64,000 bases of DNA from a virus: positions 41,405-105,404 of IMG/VR virus record IMGVR_UViG_3300025087_000641. One strand, 5' to 3'. Shown piece after piece: positions 7,453 through 48,809 of this stretch (position 1 is its first letter; each line of letters begins with the position of its first letter). Under the pieces are notes generated by a model. That model worked only from the letters and a program-made list of their open reading frames with translations, ran no database searches and was not told the DNA's origin. Position numbers and translations under genes: made by a program.

Positions 7453-8242
7453 TCTATTTGACCTCACTGGCAAGGTGGCGATCATAACTGGCGGGGCAGG
7501 ATTGCTTGGGCAACAGCACGCCGAGGCAATTGCGGCATTCGGCGGATGTCCGGTGATTCTGGACATTGATTATGATGCGGCCAGAAACATTATCAAGGAA
7601 ATCGGCGTGGGGTTTGCGTTTGAATGTAATGTGACGCGCCCCCAAGATATTTATGATACGTTGAATGAAACACTTACGCTACGCGGGCATGTGGATATTC
7701 TCATCAACAATCTCTCTTGTAATGCCAATGTTGAATCTTTGGGACAATATTCACGCCTTGAATTCTATCCATATTCACAATGGGCAAAGGACTTGGAACT
7801 CGGATTGGGAAGTGCATTCCTATGTAGTAAAATAATTGGCAGTCACATGGCAGACAAAGGCAAGGGGGTGATTGTCAACATCGCCTCAGACCTCTCCGTG
7901 ATAGCGCCAGATCAGAGGCTCTATCACAAAGAAGGACTTGCTGATGAGGAGCAGCCCAAAAAACCAATTTCTTATTCTGCAATAAAGCATGGTATTATTG
8001 GGTTAACTCGCTACCTTGCGACATATTGGGCGGGTAGAGTTAGGGTAAATGCCATAAGTCCTGGTGGAATATTTAATAATCAGCCAGATGATTTTGTGCG
8101 ACATATTAGCGACAGAATCCCAATGGGGCGCATGGCACGGGCAAATGAAATACAGGGAACATTGGTCTTTCTATGTTCTGATGCGTCATCATATATGACT
8201 GGGCAAAATATTATTGTGGATGGCGGAAGGAGTATTTGGTAA
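7442..8242 (+). CDS. Short-chain dehydrogenase/reductase (PtmA-like)
   Basis: 266 aa. TGGAGLLG cofactor loop at residues 16-23, NN at 89-90, and catalytic Y178-S-A-I-K182 are present, followed by RVNAISPGGIF. The TGGAGLLG...DILINN..C arrangement is like PtmA oxidoreductases from flagellin glycosylation loci (legionaminic acid side). It probably oxidises or reduces a sugar precursor. The stop codon overlaps the start of an inserted HNH endonuclease gene (TAATG). Confidence 0.8.
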   Translation: MPNNLFDLTGKVAIITGGAGLLGQQHAEAIAAFGGCPVILDIDYDAARNIIKEIGVGFAFECNVTRPQDIYDTLNETLTLRGHVDILINNLSCNANVESLGQYSRLEFYPYSQWAKDLELGLGSAFLCSKIIGSHMADKGKGVIVNIASDLSVIAPDQRLYHKEGLADEEQPKKPISYSAIKHGIIGLTRYLATYWAGRVRVNAISPGGIFNNQPDDFVRHISDRIPMGRMARANEIQGTLVFLCSDASSYMTGQNIIVDGGRSIW

Positions 8243-8742
8243 TGAGGAAAATAGAATTATCAAGAGGATATACTTCTGACATTGATGATGAGGATTATGA
8301 ATGGGTATCCCAATACAAATGGAATGTTTCACTGTGTAACCATACCCAATATGCTTATAGATATTCTTACAAGCCGAATGGGACTGGGGCGAAGAAATAC
8401 ATGCACCGCGAGATAATGGAAAGATATAACGGGGCATTAGGGAGTGGTATGCAGATAGACCATATAAATCACGATGGACTGAACAACAGGAAAACAAATC
8501 TTAGGATATGTACCCAGTCCCAAAACAATTGGAACGGGAGGGGGATTTTGGAGGGAACCTCAAAATACAAGGGAGTATACTTTTACAAAAGTCGCGGGAA
8601 ATGGGTTGCACAAATGTGCCTTTTCGGGAAGCGCATTTTCATTGGTAGATTCGACAGCGAAATTGATGCGGCAAGAGCATATGACAGAGTAGCAAAAGAA
8701 AAGTATGGAGAATTTGCGAAACTGAACTTCCCGGAGGAATAA
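8242..8742 (+). CDS. HNH homing endonuclease with AP2 DNA-binding domain
   Basis: 166 aa from ATG 8242 (AAGGAG at 8226-8231; TAATG overlap with the SDR stop). The HNH_3-type core includes YMHREIM, QIDHINHDGLNNRKTNLRICT and N-N-W; the C-terminal half is an AP2 domain (SKYKGVYFYKSRGKWVAQ, then FDSEIDAARAYDRVAKEKYG). HNH-AP2 proteins are mobile free-standing or intron homing nucleases. It sits in-frame between two SDR genes without damaging either and uses TAATG junctions on both sides. It is the only one of the HNH genes on the same strand as its neighbours. Confidence 0.85.
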   Translation: MRKIELSRGYTSDIDDEDYEWVSQYKWNVSLCNHTQYAYRYSYKPNGTGAKKYMHREIMERYNGALGSGMQIDHINHDGLNNRKTNLRICTQSQNNWNGRGILEGTSKYKGVYFYKSRGKWVAQMCLFGKRIFIGRFDSEIDAARAYDRVAKEKYGEFAKLNFPEE

Positions 8743-13065: not shown

Positions 13066-13071
13066 TGTACT

Positions 13072-13161
13072 GTCTAGACGGTTGCTAGTCGGGTGTGATA
13101 TAATGAATCGAGAAGTCTTGTGCAAGGCAATCGTCTAGACAACAATTGCCACCCGCACAAG
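13072..13161 (+). ncRNA. Structured leader RNA of HNH cassette (arms in A-B-C-A'-B'-C' order)
   Basis: Arm A (13072-13085, GTCTAGACGGTTGC) pairs with A' (13127-13140, one G-U). Arm B CGGGTG (13090-13095) can pair with CACCCG (13150-13155), and arm C CTTGTGC (13117-13123) with GCACAAG (13155-13161). The arms alternate, so the pairings cross: a pseudoknot or mutually exclusive hairpins. C/C' is followed by GCTTTTTGTTT, like an intrinsic terminator. The endonuclease ATG follows 23 nt later. Role inferred: attenuation or a trans-acting RNA. Confidence 0.6.
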
Positions 13162-13184
13162 GCTTTTTGTTTAAGGAGTCCAAA

Positions 13185-13706
13185 ATGGAAGAAGAAATAT
13201 GGAAGGATATTCCAAATTTCCCGCACTATCAGATTAGCAATCTTGGGCGCGTTCGTTCGTTTTTCGTCAGGGGGCAAAAACAGAAACCATGTGATACTCC
13301 GAGAATACTTGTTCCTGTTCATCGTGGCAAGGGATATTATGCGGTAAATCTTCATCGTGGAGATGATATGATTATGGTTAATATCCACCAAGCTGTTCTT
13401 ACTGCATTTGTCGGCCAATGTCCAGATGGACTTGAGGCGTGCCACAATAACAGTGTTCGCAATGACAACAGGCTTGAGAATCTTAGATGGGATACCCGTT
13501 CCAGCAACTTTCTTGACAAACGCGCAAATGGAACATCTCGCTGTGGCGAGGAAAATAATAGGGCCAAACTTAATACTGCCCAAGTTCTCGAAATACGAGA
13601 GAGGGCATTTCAGGGAGAATCGTTTGGGGTTCTCTCCGGGGATTATGGGATAAGTAATATCCATGTAAAGAGAATTGTAGAACGGGTTGTGTGGCAACAT
13701 ATCTAG
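13185..13706 (+). CDS. HNH homing endonuclease with NUMOD4 motif
   Basis: 173 aa from ATG 13185 (AAGGAG at 13173-13178). The start EEIWKDIPNFPHYQISNLGR is a textbook NUMOD4 motif; the HNH core follows as NIHQAVLTAF, CPDGLEACHNNSVRNDNRLENLRW and SSNFLDK. A C-terminal helix-turn-helix-like segment (KLNTAQVLEIRERAFQGES...YGISNIHVKRIVERVVW) probably binds DNA. It sits antisense in the gap between two late genes, with own promoter and structured leader. Confidence 0.85.
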   Translation: MEEEIWKDIPNFPHYQISNLGRVRSFFVRGQKQKPCDTPRILVPVHRGKGYYAVNLHRGDDMIMVNIHQAVLTAFVGQCPDGLEACHNNSVRNDNRLENLRWDTRSSNFLDKRANGTSRCGEENNRAKLNTAQVLEIRERAFQGESFGVLSGDYGISNIHVKRIVERVVWQHI

Positions 13707-24435: not shown

Positions 24436-24463
24436 TTGACACTATGTAAAGGTATGGTACAAT
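24436..24463 (+). promoter_or_regulatory. Sigma-70 promoter of the 24.5-kb endonuclease cassette
   Basis: TTGACA 24436-24441, 16-nt spacer, TACAAT 24458-24463. Predicted start near 24470, the first base of the structured leader. A second -10-like TATAAT lies inside the leader at 24491-24496. Confidence 0.65.
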
Positions 24464-24469
24464 TTGGTT

Positions 24470-24553
24470 GTCACCCACTATGCAAGATGGTATAATGTCT
24501 TTGCGACTCCTCTGCCACAAGCCTTGCGCTAGTGGGTGACACAGAGGAGTTGC
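24470..24553 (+). ncRNA. Structured leader RNA of endonuclease cassette (crossing stems)
   Basis: Stem 1: GTCACCCACTA (24470-24480) pairs with TAGTGGGTGAC (24530-24540) and, after a small internal loop, GCAAG (24482-24486) with CTTGC (24523-24527). Stem 2: 12 contiguous pairs between 24503-24514 (GCGACTCCTCTG) and 24542-24553 (CAGAGGAGTTGC) with one G-U. Stem 2's first strand lies in the loop of stem 1, so the two cross. TTTTATTTT follows stem 2. Clearest example of the four cassettes. Confidence 0.7.
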
Positions 24554-24573
24554 TTTTATTTTCAGGAGTCATT

Positions 24574-25356
24574 ATGGCTAAAAGTTCTTTGGGTAAAAAG
24601 CGCGGTATTCACACTTGCAATGTGTGTGGCGTAAAATTTAAGAGATGGTGTGATGCGCCAATACTCTTGATATGTGAGGACTGTTATTTAATAACTATAC
24701 CATGTGAACAATGTGGAGAACCTGCAAGGAAATATACAAAAGTTGCTAGGCCAAGAAGATTCTGTGACAGCAAGTGCAGGCAGACATATATTGCTAGAAA
24801 GACAGCACAAACTAGGGGCGAAACAACAAGGCAAAAACACAAAACAGACCAAGTTTACCACGAAAAGATGTCTGCAATTTTAAGGTCTGTTCATCATCTT
24901 TCACAAACGAAAGAGAATTTTGAGGCAATATCTAAAAGTCTCAAGAAGAGATGGAAAAATAAAGATTATAGGGAATATATGTCGGCAATGTCGCGTCGGA
25001 TTTGGGAAGACAGGGATAAAATGCTGAATTCCGTAAAGTGGCATCCAACTAAAATGACAAATCTAGAAAGGAAAATTGATGAAATTATATCGGAATGGGG
25101 AATTACATATCACTTAAATTATATGGTCGGGAGATACTTTATAGATTTTGCATTCCCAGAACATATGATTGGCATAGAATGTGATGGGGAATATTGGCAT
25201 CGTAACACAAGGGAAAGAGAAGCCAAGCGTGATGCTTGGCTCTCATCTTGTGGTTGGACAATTATTAGACTCTCTGAAAACGAGATTGAAAATTGTCCCG
25301 TTTGGACACTTGCCACAAAGGTGGTTCCCCTTATAGAGAATTGTTCTAATCCCTAG
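24574..25356 (+). CDS. EDxHD/Vsr-like (DUF559-type) homing endonuclease with zinc fingers
   Basis: 260 aa from ATG 24574 (AGGAG at 24564-24568). The N-terminal 75 residues have Cys pairs (CNVC, CEDC, CEQC, and CDSKC), likely two zinc fingers. A charged helical linker follows. The C-terminal nuclease is of the Vsr/EDxHD kind: LERKIDEIISEWGI, YFIDFAFPEHMIGIECDGEY, WHRN and GWTIIRLSENEI. Such enzymes act as free-standing homing endonucleases in phages. Antisense between metallopeptidase-like and major tail genes; its last codon overlaps the end of the tail gene by 4 nt. Confidence 0.8.
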   Translation: MAKSSLGKKRGIHTCNVCGVKFKRWCDAPILLICEDCYLITIPCEQCGEPARKYTKVARPRRFCDSKCRQTYIARKTAQTRGETTRQKHKTDQVYHEKMSAILRSVHHLSQTKENFEAISKSLKKRWKNKDYREYMSAMSRRIWEDRDKMLNSVKWHPTKMTNLERKIDEIISEWGITYHLNYMVGRYFIDFAFPEHMIGIECDGEYWHRNTREREAKRDAWLSSCGWTIIRLSENEIENCPVWTLATKVVPLIENCSNP

Positions 25357-26808: not shown

Positions 26809-26837
26809 TTGTACTATATCCCATTATATGGTAAAAT
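26809..26837 (+). promoter_or_regulatory. Sigma-70 promoter of the NUMOD3-HNH cassette
   Basis: TTGTAC 26809-26814, 17-nt spacer, TAAAAT 26832-26837. Predicted start near 26843, the first base of leader arm A. The TATGGTA(A/C)AATTTG stretch is nearly the same as at the 24.46-kb cassette promoter. A TATAAT copy lies at 26866-26871 inside the leader. Confidence 0.6.
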
Positions 26838-26841
26838 TTGC

Positions 26842-26932
26842 TTGCTGAGGTAAGCCATAATACGGTATAATAGAATTCATCAATCGCCTGCATCGGCTTG
26901 CCTCAGCAACAAGACCGTATCGCGGGCGATTG
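26842..26932 (+). ncRNA. Structured leader RNA of NUMOD3-HNH cassette (three crossing stems)
   Basis: Arm A TTGCTGAGGTAAGCC (26842-26856) pairs with GGCTTGCCTCAGCAA (26895-26909), 15 pairs with one G-U. Arm B ATACGGT (26860-26866) pairs with ACCGTAT (26914-26920). Arm C CAATCGCC (26881-26888) pairs with GGCGATTG (26925-26932). The order A-B-C-A'-B'-C' is the same as at 13072-13161, although sequences differ. GGAGG follows at 26938-26942 and the ATG at 26947. Confidence 0.7.
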
Positions 26933-26946
26933 TATTTGGAGGTTGT

Positions 26947-27930
26947 ATGCCAAGAAAAGGCCAGAAGATTACCAAAGAACATAGCCAAGCTATTGCCGAT
27001 GCTAATAGGCGTAGAATTTTCACCCCAGAAATGCGTGGGAATTACAGTAAAGCACAACAGGGCAAAACCCTTTCCGATGAGCATAAGAAGAAACTCAGCG
27101 ACTCTCTTTCTGGAGACAGAAATCCATTTTTTGGAAGAACACATAGCGAGGAGACTCGCAGAAAAATATCCGAGGGGAATAAGGGCAAGGTCGGCTACAA
27201 TCTTGGGAAACATCTCTCTGACAAAACGAAAGAAAAACTTAGACGGGTTCATCTTGGTAAGCCAAGTCCCATGAGGGGAAAGCGGATGTCGGAAGAATCT
27301 AGGGAGAAAATGAGAATGGCTTGGGGCAATCGGCGTATGCGTATGGCTGAGGCAAAGGATATTAGAAAGCGCCAAAGAATGAAAGATGCTTGGAAGTCCA
27401 GAAAGGATAAAATTGGCGGGAATGGAGTTCATCCCGAAACAAGGGAAAAGTTGAGCATCAGTAGAATGGGAACTGGCAATTCTTTTTACGGAAAGAAACA
27501 TTCCCCTGAAACAATAGAAAAAATGACAGGCCCAAACAATAGCCAGTGGAAGGGGGGACACGAAAGATATTATGGCCCGGAATGGACTAAAACACTGAGG
27601 GCAAAAATAAGAAGGCGTGATGGATACAAATGTATGATTAATCCATCCCATCTCATTTCTGGTCATTTTGGCGTTCCAGATGTTCATCACATTATTCCAT
27701 ATTTTGACGCTATTGATGCACAACTAGAGCGTCCACACCGTCACGAAAATCTTATATCGCTCTGTAGAAAATGTCATCGTCGGGCAGAGGCACACCCAAA
27801 TGTCTCTGTGCCACAACTCCAATCATTGCTTATTGAAAGATATAGTTATCAAAGGGAAAATATGTTATCTATGCCGATATACATTCAAACTGAAAAATCC
27901 ACCCAATCATGTCCGTGCCCGCAAATGTGA
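26947..27930 (+). CDS. HNH homing endonuclease with NUMOD3 repeats (327 aa)
   Basis: The N-terminal half carries about five NUMOD3 DNA-binding modules (GRTHSEETRRKISEGNKGK, GKHLSDKTKEKLRRVHLGK, GKRMSEESREKMRMAW, HPETREKLSISRMG, GKKHSPETIEKMTG). The HNH nuclease follows: TLRAKIRRRDGYKCM, PDVHHIIPY and HENLISLCRKCHRRAE. The 3' end overlaps the antisense tail terminator-like gene by 62 nt, so its last 20 residues are encoded opposite that gene's C-terminus. Confidence 0.85.
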   Translation: MPRKGQKITKEHSQAIADANRRRIFTPEMRGNYSKAQQGKTLSDEHKKKLSDSLSGDRNPFFGRTHSEETRRKISEGNKGKVGYNLGKHLSDKTKEKLRRVHLGKPSPMRGKRMSEESREKMRMAWGNRRMRMAEAKDIRKRQRMKDAWKSRKDKIGGNGVHPETREKLSISRMGTGNSFYGKKHSPETIEKMTGPNNSQWKGGHERYYGPEWTKTLRAKIRRRDGYKCMINPSHLISGHFGVPDVHHIIPYFDAIDAQLERPHRHENLISLCRKCHRRAEAHPNVSVPQLQSLLIERYSYQRENMLSMPIYIQTEKSTQSCPCPQM

Positions 27931-33643: not shown

Positions 33644-35239
33644 CTACATTCTTGCAATGGTTGAGTAACTTGTTTTAAGAATACGAGATGCAGGAACGGG
33701 CGGGAATGTACTTGTTCCAGCAACCGTCCATGTGGCTATTAGGTCAGCCGCATTCGCCGCGTTATCTGTATAATCAGCCCAGTTCCACCAGGCCGAAACT
33801 GCCGCACTCCCATTTATGCATGTTACCCCGATGTCGCCCGAAAATCCTGCCCGATTGACAACAATCTGCATAGGCGTTACAAGTGATGGGCTAGTATGTG
33901 TGGTGGCATCTGCCCAACTATTGTCACTAACTGGACTTCCCGTGCGCGCATGATGGGCACTAATGCGGTGAACATCGGCATTGAGAAAGTCTGTCGGCGT
34001 ATCTATATTGAAAAAGTCCCATGCCAAAGTGTGTCCAGCATCAAAATCTGTTGACTGTTGCACGAGTGTAACAGTGGACGTGTTAATGGTTGCGCCTTGC
34101 GGAATGGCCGTCGAGCGCCAAATCCAACCACCATCCATGTTATTAATGGGTGTAGCCAAGTCACAGCCAATGTAGAAAGTTCCAAACGTTGCTTGAGACG
34201 GAAGAACCATCTCATCGTTATCCTCATTTGTAGAGCCACTCGCCCCGTCCTCGTTAGTCTCTGCAACCGTGAAAGTCGGGTCAAACACAATCGGCCCGGC
34301 GACCATTGAATTTAGGTCTGGTACGAGCGCACCGACAAGCAGATATGTATTACCGTCTGGGTCGCGCCAGACACGCTTGCGAAGCGTGCGCCAATCGCGG
34401 ACATTGGTATGCAGGCCGATTGTATAGGCTTGGCTGTAAGCCTGTGAAATCGGCAAGAATCCGAGCAACCGATTTAGCGAGTCTTCAATGCGGATGGATG
34501 TGCCATCGGAGTCATCAAAATCGCCAGTGATGTCTTGTTGAATTGCGCCCTTGACCCAACGCGAGATGTCGCTTGCGTCAAGTCTGAAAACAAATCCAAA
34601 GTATGTCTCATTAGCAGGCGTTGAGGGTGGTGCATTGGCAACAATCCACTCCCGCGCTGCCTGACTGACAACAATCTCCTCTTTCATGTCACGCCCCGCG
34701 ATACGCCAACGGATGTCAATGGGGCGCGTCGTTCCCCCTCCCAATGCCCAAATGCGATTCCATGTTGCCAATGCCGATAGTGGATATACGATTTGTGTTC
34801 CACTTGGGCCTATAGTTTTAGTTTGAGAAACCTGCGTTAGTCGTCCGCCTGTCCGCACATAGGCGGGCAATCCGCCAATATCCTGCCAATCGCGTGTCGG
34901 CCAATGTAGATAGCCAACACGAGTCAAGCGTGAGCGCAACCAATTCTGCCCACGTCGTCCACCAAACCCAACTACACCATCCAACCCCGCCAGCACGCCA
35001 CTTCCGGGAATACCGAGTGCATAATGCCATCCATTTTGCGTAACAAGCCATCCATCAAGTTGTGCATTGTTTATACGTGTTGGCAATGCCGCAATCTCGC
35101 CATCATATATTCCAGAATCAAGCGCGGTTTCATAATGCAGGCGCGCAATGCTGGCATGTGTGTGAAATAGTCCTGTTGCATCATCGCGCCATGTCTTTGA
35201 ACCTCTCCCCCGAAGAGTCTGTTGTTCAACCCACGCCAT
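33644..35239 (-). CDS. Large structural protein of unknown role (531 aa)
   Basis: Tightly packed in the late operon. Sequence opens MAWVEQQTLRGRGSKTWRD; there is a QNGWHYALGIPGSGVLAGLDG motif typical of phage surface proteins, and the last 200 residues form an apparent beta-sandwich with ATFGTFYIGCD and WIWRSTAIPQGATI. Probably a virion adhesin or tail protein. No specific family. Confidence 0.55.
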   Translation of the reverse strand: MAWVEQQTLRGRGSKTWRDDATGLFHTHASIARLHYETALDSGIYDGEIAALPTRINNAQLDGWLVTQNGWHYALGIPGSGVLAGLDGVVGFGGRRGQNWLRSRLTRVGYLHWPTRDWQDIGGLPAYVRTGGRLTQVSQTKTIGPSGTQIVYPLSALATWNRIWALGGGTTRPIDIRWRIAGRDMKEEIVVSQAAREWIVANAPPSTPANETYFGFVFRLDASDISRWVKGAIQQDITGDFDDSDGTSIRIEDSLNRLLGFLPISQAYSQAYTIGLHTNVRDWRTLRKRVWRDPDGNTYLLVGALVPDLNSMVAGPIVFDPTFTVAETNEDGASGSTNEDNDEMVLPSQATFGTFYIGCDLATPINNMDGGWIWRSTAIPQGATINTSTVTLVQQSTDFDAGHTLAWDFFNIDTPTDFLNADVHRISAHHARTGSPVSDNSWADATTHTSPSLVTPMQIVVNRAGFSGDIGVTCINGSAAVSAWWNWADYTDNAANAADLIATWTVAGTSTFPPVPASRILKTSYSTIARM

Positions 35240-41371: not shown

Positions 41372-41415
41372 CGAACGAATGTCGCAGGTTATTCGGTTAT
41401 GTCAATCAACTTACG

Positions 41416-47731: not shown

Positions 47732-47818
47732 GGGCTTGAGATGTCTTGCTAACATCTGACAAATCCGAAACCTGTATCGGAAGCCCCGTTATCCCCAACA
47801 GGCCATCATTAACAGGAA
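47732..47818 (+). ncRNA. Structured leader RNA of the 47.8-kb cassette
   Basis: GGGCTT (47732-47737) pairs with AAGCCC (47781-47786); AGATGT/ACATCT (47739-47744/47752-47757) forms an internal hairpin; CCTGT (47771-47775), in the large loop, pairs with ACAGG (47798-47802) beyond it, again giving the crossing order. GCCAT/ATGGC closes a last hairpin just before the ATG. Stems are shorter than in the other cassettes. Confidence 0.45.
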
Positions 47819-47825
47819 TGGCGAA

Positions 47826-48809
47826 ATGTCTTATCATGTCCCTAATACAACAATAATCTGTGAACAGTGCGGAAAAGAATTTTCATACTATAAGGTTGCA
47901 TCTGTAAAGATGCGACATTTCTGTAGTTGTGAATGTCATGGCATTTCAATAAGAAGGGGATGGTCAAAAAAGGCTTGTGCCATATGCGGAAATGAATATA
48001 TTTCAAAGAATTCAGACAAAAAGTATTGCAGAAGAACCGCATGTAGTATCGGATGTGCCATAAAATTAGCACGACTAGAGAATAAGGAAAAAATCAACGA
48101 GAAACTATTTTGGAATGAGGCTAGAAAGTCATTTCTTGTTGAAAATTATGCCCTTCTTGGGAAAAAATTATGTGCCGAGAAACTGGGATGTTCTGAAAAA
48201 GCCATAGGTGCACAAGTGCATAGGCTTGGATTGAGTCTTCCGCTAGATATTGCCCAAAAGAATAGAGCAGATGCACTTCGTGAACACCGAAGGGTAAACG
48301 GCCACCCAATGAAAAATCCAGAGATTGCAAGGCGAGGCCGCGAAACATGGCTCAAAAATGTCGGTGAGGTTGGACAAGAGGCTGAAAGGCAAAGACTCAT
48401 AAAAATGTCCAGAGAAATTAGATTGAAAAAATCCTCAAAACTTCAAGAGTCCGTCAGGGATAAACTGCTCACCATAGGATTGGATTTTGAATATGAATTC
48501 ATATTGAATGGGAATTTCATTGTTGATTTTGCATTCCCCAGTAAGAAATTTATTGTACAGATTGATGGATGTTACTGGCATGGGCATTCCTGTAGAAACA
48601 AAGAATTGACAAGTGGTCAAATTTCACAAATCAAGCGGGACGCCTCACAAGATAAATATTGCGAGGTATGTGGATGGATGGTTTTGAGAATATTTGAGTG
48701 TGAGATACACAGGGATTGGACATCATGTCTGGACAAAATATTTTCATGCTTGGGAAAGCCAGCACCTACACCCACTCTGGCACTTAAAATCCCCCGGAAC
48801 GCGCTGTGA
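47826..48809 (+). CDS. EDxHD/Vsr-like homing endonuclease with zinc fingers (327 aa)
   Basis: N-terminus: CEQCGKEFSYYKV, CSCEC, CAICGNEYISK, CRRTAC - two or more zinc fingers. The centre is helical with a HTH-like LLGKKLCAEKLGCSEKAIGA segment. The C-terminal nuclease: LQESVRDKLLTIGLDFEYEF, FIVDFAFPSKKFIVQIDGCY, WHGHSC and GWMVLRIFECEI. Same class as the 24.6-kb protein but with low identity, so acquired separately. Its 3' end overlaps the portal gene by 66 nt. Confidence 0.8.
   Translation: MSYHVPNTTIICEQCGKEFSYYKVASVKMRHFCSCECHGISIRRGWSKKACAICGNEYISKNSDKKYCRRTACSIGCAIKLARLENKEKINEKLFWNEARKSFLVENYALLGKKLCAEKLGCSEKAIGAQVHRLGLSLPLDIAQKNRADALREHRRVNGHPMKNPEIARRGRETWLKNVGEVGQEAERQRLIKMSREIRLKKSSKLQESVRDKLLTIGLDFEYEFILNGNFIVDFAFPSKKFIVQIDGCYWHGHSCRNKELTSGQISQIKRDASQDKYCEVCGWMVLRIFECEIHRDWTSCLDKIFSCLGKPAPTPTLALKIPRNAL

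Follow-up and report, generated by a model that had tools for sequence, protein, structure and literature searches.

The DNA analysed here, called the window, is a 64,000-nt stretch of a virus (positions 41,405 to 105,404 of the 105,404-bp record IMGVR_UViG_3300025087_000641). At 24.4 kb it carries a homing endonuclease gene (HEG) on the plus strand (24574-25356) that encodes a 260-residue nuclease of the DUF559/MTES_1575 type (EDxHD-like). Upstream of the gene lies a predicted promoter, P1 (24436-24463, TTGACA-16-TACAAT), the expected start of which, at about 24470, coincides with the beginning of arm A (TGTCACCCACTA, 24469-24480). Arm A is followed by arm C (GCGACTCCTCTG, 24503-24514), arm A' (TAGTGGGTGACA, 24530-24541) and arm C' (CAGAGGAGTTGC, 24542-24553), the last of which runs into a U-rich stretch. 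The arms pair as the initial annotation had described them, A with A' over 12 bp and C with C' over 12 bp that include one G·U. A second promoter-like sequence within the leader, P2 (24468-24496, TTGTCA-17-TATAAT), predicts a start at 24503, the first base of arm C; in the promoter scan P1 and P2 both scored 11/12, each with a TG before the second hexamer. The Shine-Dalgarno (SD) sequence AGGAGTC (24564-24570) is complementary to GACTCCT in arm C over 7 bp without a mismatch and is a candidate third arm, C''; a match as good occurred in 49 of 2000 shuffles and in 4 of 42 real SD regions, so that this pairing is suggestive only. An Rfam search of the region from 24.4 to 26.9 kb yielded no match.

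Two further cassettes on the plus strand have the same order. At 13.0 kb, the promoter P1 (13037-13065, TTGACA-17-TACAAA) was read by eye, since the scan requires a T at position 6 and did not call it. It is followed by arm A (TGTCTAGACGGTTGC, 13071-13085), an internal TATAAT with an extended -10 (TGA) directly 5' of arm C (13099-13104), arm C itself (13109-13123), arm A' (13127-13141), arm C' (GCACAAGGCTTTTTG, 13155-13169) and a NUMOD4-HNH_3 gene (13185-13706); the two helices have arms of 15-16 nt and of at most 15 nt, G·U pairs included. At 26.8 kb, a weak promoter match that the scan did not call (26809-26837, TTGTAC-17-TAAAAT) precedes arm A (26842-26856), an internal TATAAT 5' of arm C (26866-26871), arm C (CAATCGCCTGC, 26881-26891), arm A' (26895-26909), arm C' (GCGGGCGATTG, 26922-26932) and a NUMOD3-HNH gene (26947-27930). 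Here the arms are 15 and 11 nt long with one G·U each, and an extra arm B, ATACGGT (26860-26866), finds its complement ACCGTAT (26914-26920) between A' and C'. The search for a distinct C'' at 13.0 and 26.8 kb showed none.

The fourth cassette, at 47.7 kb on the same strand, is built differently. Its promoter P1 (47697-47725, TTGCAT-17-TAAAAT) is again a weak match left uncalled by the scan. Arm A, GGGCTT (47732-47737), forms the P1 stem with AAGCCC (47781-47786) and is followed by the P2 hairpin GATGT-CTTGCTA-ACATC (47740-47756), by TGACAAA (47757-47763), a motif conserved in the type A leaders described below, and by the P3 hairpin TCCGA-AACCTGTA-TCGGA (47764-47781), the loop of which holds arm C (CCTGT, 47771-47775). 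The P3 loop is complementary to arm C', AACAGG (47797-47802), and to a second AACAGG, arm C'' (47811-47816), which belongs to the SD, some 10 nt 5' of the ATG of a gene for a 327-residue DUF559/Vsr-type nuclease (47826-48809). The nucleases of the four cassettes thus belong to the families that had been claimed for them: NUMOD4-HNH, NUMOD3-HNH and, twice, the DUF559/Vsr/MTES_1575 type (EDxHD-like).

Crossing-stem pairs within 130 nt were scored exhaustively along all 105,404 bp of the virus, on both strands. Ranks 1 to 3 by the score of the weaker stem went to the leaders at 13.0, 24.4 and 26.8 kb (31.5, 29.5 and 27.5), and other non-overlapping sites, barring opposite-strand readings of these three, reached at most 23.5. 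With z values of 9.2, 7.0 and 8.4 against dinucleotide shuffles, the A-C-A'-C' arms proposed at these loci are the three best sites of the virus. Their core arms contain five imperfect pairs, all five of which are G·U on the plus strand and would be A·C on the opposite strand, which points to an RNA that reads in the same direction as the nuclease genes. In nested folding, which cannot represent the pseudoknot, C:C' is nearly complete in the strong leaders (P 0.99-1.0), so that C'' would be a weak rival there. The arms at 47.7 kb failed the generic test (z = -0.6) but were recovered with a descriptor of type A leaders that comprises P1, P2, the P3 hairpin, P1' and, in duplicate, a 5-mer that complements the P3 loop. 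It matched at four start positions on both strands of the virus, two of which are the 47.7-kb leader; with GA[ACT]AA added, 47,732 was the sole match in 105 kb on both strands, and six shuffles gave 0, 0, 1, 0, 0 and 0 matches. The descriptor is insensitive, its relaxed forms recovering 13 of 27 and 4 of 19 known members, so that its silence elsewhere in the virus means little.

A fifth HEG of this virus, of the HNH type (8236-8742, plus strand), lies inside a rightward operon, where its start overlaps the upstream stop (TAATG); it has neither a promoter of its own nor an RNA leader. The first 60 bases of the record recur at 105257 (63853 of the window), 148 nt before its end, which suggests a terminal direct repeat and hence a complete genome.

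Promoters of the form TTGxxx-16/17-TAxAAx had been assigned to all four cassettes. The assignment holds well at 24.4 kb and, by eye, at 13.0 kb, whereas the sites at 26.8 and 47.7 kb are too weak to be called. The predicted starts lie no more than about 2 nt from where arm A begins in all four cases, as had been stated. A single promoter that starts at A is nevertheless too simple a picture, since three leaders contain a second TATAAT site with a start at or near C. The additional pairs and the C'' copy at the SD had likewise gone unremarked in the initial annotation. TATAAT stands in the loop just 5' of arm C in 3/3 strong leaders, for which the chance, from the frequency of TATAAT in the genome, is about 2 x 10^-7. 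Judged from its sequence and position, it could be a putative second promoter or an RNA loop motif.

Homologues of the three strong leaders were sought outside this virus and none were found: BLAST of the leader DNA against phages gave no match, a look at close relatives of the nucleases and the tail gene of the window brought nothing informative, the DUF559 relatives examined had no crossing leader, and NUMOD4 genes inside operons had no leader. Related leaders of two other kinds, types A and B, were found before HEGs in Bacteroidota-type phages. In type A, stem A is followed by a hairpin, by GA(C/A)AA, by a P3 hairpin that carries C in the loop, and then by A', a U-rich tract and C'; a second copy of C', C'', stands directly before the start codon. 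Examples of the triple C/C'/C'' are GCAACGG/CCGTTG/CCGTTG, GCTGATG/CATCAGC/CATCAGC, GTAGGTT/AACCTAC/AACCTAC and CCTGTCC/GGACAGG/GGACAGG. Among 11 type A leaders, that at 47.7 kb included, the true sets of C:C' and C:C'' partners (mean pairing strength 17.7 and 17.6) each beat 20000 permutations (0/20000), in a test that ignores relatedness between leaders and in which the two sets are not independent, because C'' resembles C'.

Type A leaders align over their full length with the int-alpA RNA (Rfam RF02996) at 31.8, 28.5 and 28.0 bits, below the gathering cut-off of 35.8 bits. Both share P1 (A:A'), UAG, the P2 hairpin, CGAAAAG, the P3 hairpin with the C loop, the U-rich tract and C'; in contrast to int-alpA, the Bacteroidota-type leaders have a TAnnTTTG promoter of their own and precede HEGs. 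The int-alpA loci were sampled in Gammaproteobacteria, where 34 of 274 genomes contained a match over the cut-off. At the 27 loci with a clear next gene, the triple of C in the P3 loop (ACCTTC, ACCCT...), C' (GAAGG, AGGGT...) and C'' in the SD of that gene holds, with a pairing strength of 14.2 for both C:C' and C:C''; again none of 20000 permutations, which likewise disregard relatedness, did as well for either. The median distance from C' to the ATG is 19 nt at these loci. In 23 of 30 cases an upstream open reading frame ends 3-28 nt (median 8) 5' of arm A, as against 10% at random positions, and a ribosome that finishes there could cover arm A. In E. coli MB46 an integrase precedes the int-alpA RNA and a DUF6387 gene follows it. 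In the loci L241-L270 the RNA is mostly intergenic and has a P3 loop complementary to the SD of the gene that follows. The sequence comparison favours int-alpA as a cis-acting leader over the small RNA under which Rfam files it ('Gene; sRNA'). A core that resembles int-alpA, TAGGGTAGCTCCCGACAAG, and includes a strong P3 hairpin also occurs upstream of a NUMOD4 gene in a Clostridia metagenome-assembled genome (L107), where a C'/C'' copy was not found by eye.

The 47.7-kb leader has the order P1, P2 hairpin, GAnAA, P3 hairpin, P1' and, by its sequence, is of the int-alpA-like type (P1, P2 hairpin, GACAAA, P3 hairpin with C in the loop), while the RF02996 covariance model did not match it. The P2 hairpin and the GAnAA between A and C, as searched with the type A descriptor, were not found in the leaders at 24.4, 13.0 and 26.8 kb. 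The four leaders are not the one shared motif for which they had been taken: these three form a third subtype, seen in this virus alone, a sister of type A with the same order and much stronger stems. HDV-like ribozymes and group I cores, both of which contain crossing helices, were rejected on inspection, the gaps between C and A' and between A' and C' being too short for the required hairpins. The open-access literature searched, the original int-alpA paper aside, contained no account of these leaders that we could find.

Type B leaders were encountered in a search with NUMOD4-HNH nucleases, on contigs that we call Bacteroidota-type phages because of their TAnnTTTG promoters; the leaders follow directly after the promoter and keep the same order. 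They begin with hairpin 1, the 7-nt loop of which is A, followed by NAGAAAT, stem C, AGUAGG, stem D with a 7-nt loop that is A', GAA(A)G, C', a U-rich tract and the ATG; the 16 nt before the ATG are 51% U and 22% A. The loops A and A' are fully complementary, i.e., kissing loops. Their helix is paired in 100% of the cells in spite of 21 distinct sequences, with two-sided changes in 6 of its 7 pairs, and over the whole leader 21 of 24 pairs covary by this measure, the covariation having first been computed on a set of nine leaders. Altogether 93.7% of the cells are paired, as compared with 69.4% in shuffles (0/500), and pairing falls to about 42% when the alignment is slid by one column. G·U stands in 20 cells and A·C in 1. 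No C'' is visible in type B, and no Rfam family matches it. When 297 Bacteroidota genomes were searched with a covariance model of type B, weak matches only came up; the strong ones were in phage contigs. In two whole phage contigs of 72 and 74 kb, crossing arms behind TAnnTTTG-type promoters mostly precede HEGs. By eye, a type B-like leader is seen in Flavobacterium phage FCOV-F41 (AGTAGG, A' GCACTAC, GAAAG), to which the type B model gave no score.

At the level of sequence, the existence and covariation of the related leader families are strongly supported. The covariation search proposed in the initial annotation was run on the type A and B leaders and came out in favour of structure, and together with the bias of G·U pairs to the sense strand it upholds the proposal that one topology with differing arm sequences is the mark of a functional RNA.

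The genes behind the leaders argue for a portable element. Among 36 distinct proteins scanned after type A and B leaders, 34 were HNH-type nucleases from at least three groups (phrog_59/959/99; phrog_374/3377; phrog_953 with DUF723), and the remaining two were a DUF1376 and an HTH protein. The same leader precedes different nucleases (L197, L198, L200, L201, L204) or an unrelated HNH protein (L199 versus L203 and L205), which indicates that the module is exchanged, and different leaders also precede one nuclease family. The HEGs of L079, L227, L228, L229, L237, L239 and L240 share the leader and a common N-terminus, MLPYQNLSLEDMPGE, beyond which they diverge, as though the promoter, the leader and the first codons were moving between nuclease bodies. 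The expectation that leaders stand before HEGs of several families is thus borne out; the plan is not, however, confined to HEGs. In C3_41T2LP, a cultured phage of Bacteroides, type A leaders stand before a NUMOD4-HNH gene and an HTH gene and a weaker-scoring one before an AntA/AntB antirepressor gene, a DUF1376 gene is also preceded by type A, and in prophages the RNA is intergenic. Type A therefore appears to be a more general gene-control leader of phages of which HEGs make much use. In three near-identical viral contigs (L231-L233) the gene after the type A leader is a DUF1376 replication-type gene, and no TAnnTTTG promoter is recognisable.

With C'' in the ribosome-binding region, type A reads most simply as a translational switch whose two folds compete. 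Arm A, at the 5' end, would pair with A' across the loop that holds C, and pairing of C with C' would complete a pseudoknot or kissing-loop fold. In type A and int-alpA-like leaders, including that at 47.7 kb, C would have two rival partners of near-equal strength, C' on the 3' side of A' and C'' at the SD or start codon. When A:A' is formed, C would lie adjacent to C' and leave C'' free (ON); when A:A' is absent or late, C would take C'' and mask translation (OFF). At 24.4 kb, C (GACTCCT) could also pair with its own SD (AGGAGTC), and a second promoter in the loop would yield a transcript that begins at C and has no A, such that the choice of promoter would set the fold, as in the T4 HEGs. 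Translation control by alternative pairing, the assignment of the ON state, the trigger, the two transcripts and a type A-like operation of the 24.4-kb leader are what we infer. The sequence case for a translational switch in type A and int-alpA is good; carried over by analogy to the 24.4-kb leader, it commands moderate confidence. On balance, the leader is probably a regulatory RNA that acts in cis and forms the 5' end of a self-contained nuclease cassette, with C:C' and C:C'' competing as a switch. The role in expression control that had been suggested is likewise probable, since in type A and int-alpA C'' lies at the SD or start region and C:C'' covaries.

A bolder extension is that types A and B are widespread riboswitch-like classes of phages, the core of which would sense a small molecule, an ion or a host factor indicative of the stage of infection and flip C between C' and the SD, thereby timing selfish nucleases and phage regulators alike. 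The conserved unpaired motifs, UAG and GAnAA in type A and AGUA/GAA in type B, are compatible with a riboswitch core; we offer this possibility tentatively and with more doubt than trust. If true, the int-alpA RNA would be a cis-acting switch rather than a small RNA.

Among the alternatives, transcription attenuation, in which C:C' and the U-rich tract would halt RNA polymerase before the nuclease gene unless A:A' interferes, accounts for the U-rich sequence after C' at 24.4 kb, at 13.0 kb and in type B, where the C:C' hairpin has A' as its loop and kissing could modulate termination. For these U-rich types the attenuation suggested initially keeps a low probability: the loops measure 27-31 nt, the window leaders tested yielded no call of a terminator-like site, the U-rich tract before the ATG may also be a ribosome standby site, and a pure terminator leaves the third arm at the SD of type A unexplained. 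Quite improbable is a role of the stems in protecting or insulating 5' ends, whereby tandem promoters place the ends in A (P1) and in C (P2) and stabilise the mRNA of a cassette that is antisense to late genes. The predicted starts at A and at or near C in three leaders, the rarity by chance of a TATAAT in all three loops and the two tandem promoter matches of 11/12 at 24.4 kb agree with it, but no second promoter was seen inside the related type A and B leaders, the TATAAT could be a loop motif of the RNA, and the conserved unpaired motifs and C'' at the SD find no explanation. A separate RNA that serves the nuclease as guide or cofactor, another of the roles suggested initially, has in its favour that the leader adjoins a nuclease gene, as in the IscB or TnpB systems; it is very improbable, given one leader module before different nucleases, different leaders before one family, type A before antirepressor, HTH and DUF1376 genes, and a C that in type A pairs with the SD or start region of the gene itself, and an Rfam search found no omegaRNA or HEARO match, the window nucleases being of the NUMOD-HNH and DUF559 types. 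Chance inverted repeats or DNA operators, which palindromic stretches in the arms (TCTAGA at 13.0 kb) and the autorepression of some HEGs through operators (PMC2988022) might suggest, are strongly disfavoured by the first three ranks in the genome, by G·U on the sense strand only (5/5, and 20 to 1 in type B) and by the covariation of the related leaders.

HEGs need expression at the right time to spread without harm to the phage. A portable module of promoter and RNA, common to nucleases of different families and present in several phage lineages, bears on how free-standing HEGs outside T4 manage this. For int-alpA, which occurs in many Gammaproteobacteria and has no role assigned in Rfam, a testable function emerges, namely pairing of the P3 loop with C' versus the SD of the next gene. 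As the cultured B. uniformis phage C3_41T2LP carries type A leaders, one of them at 35106-35180, bench tests are feasible.

A precedent for translational control by a pseudoknot in phages is the T4 gene 32 mRNA, in which a 5' pseudoknot upstream of the start region is bound by the protein gp32. The leaders described here are not known to have such a partner, and the gene 32 pseudoknot has no alternative C''. In the T4-type HEGs (I-TevI, SegB and MobE of Aeh1), leader RNA structure controls the access of ribosomes and hence translation, and the position of the promoter decides whether the structure that masks the ribosome-binding site can form (PMC2988022). A comparable masking is conceivable at 24.4 and 47.7 kb, where C is complementary to the SD at the level of sequence, nested folding not being decisive. 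The T4-type leaders are single nested hairpins, and that of I-TevI lies on transcripts from upstream promoters, whereas the leaders of the window and their relatives form crossing helices or kissing loops, stand at the start of the transcript predicted for the cassette itself and are conserved as families.
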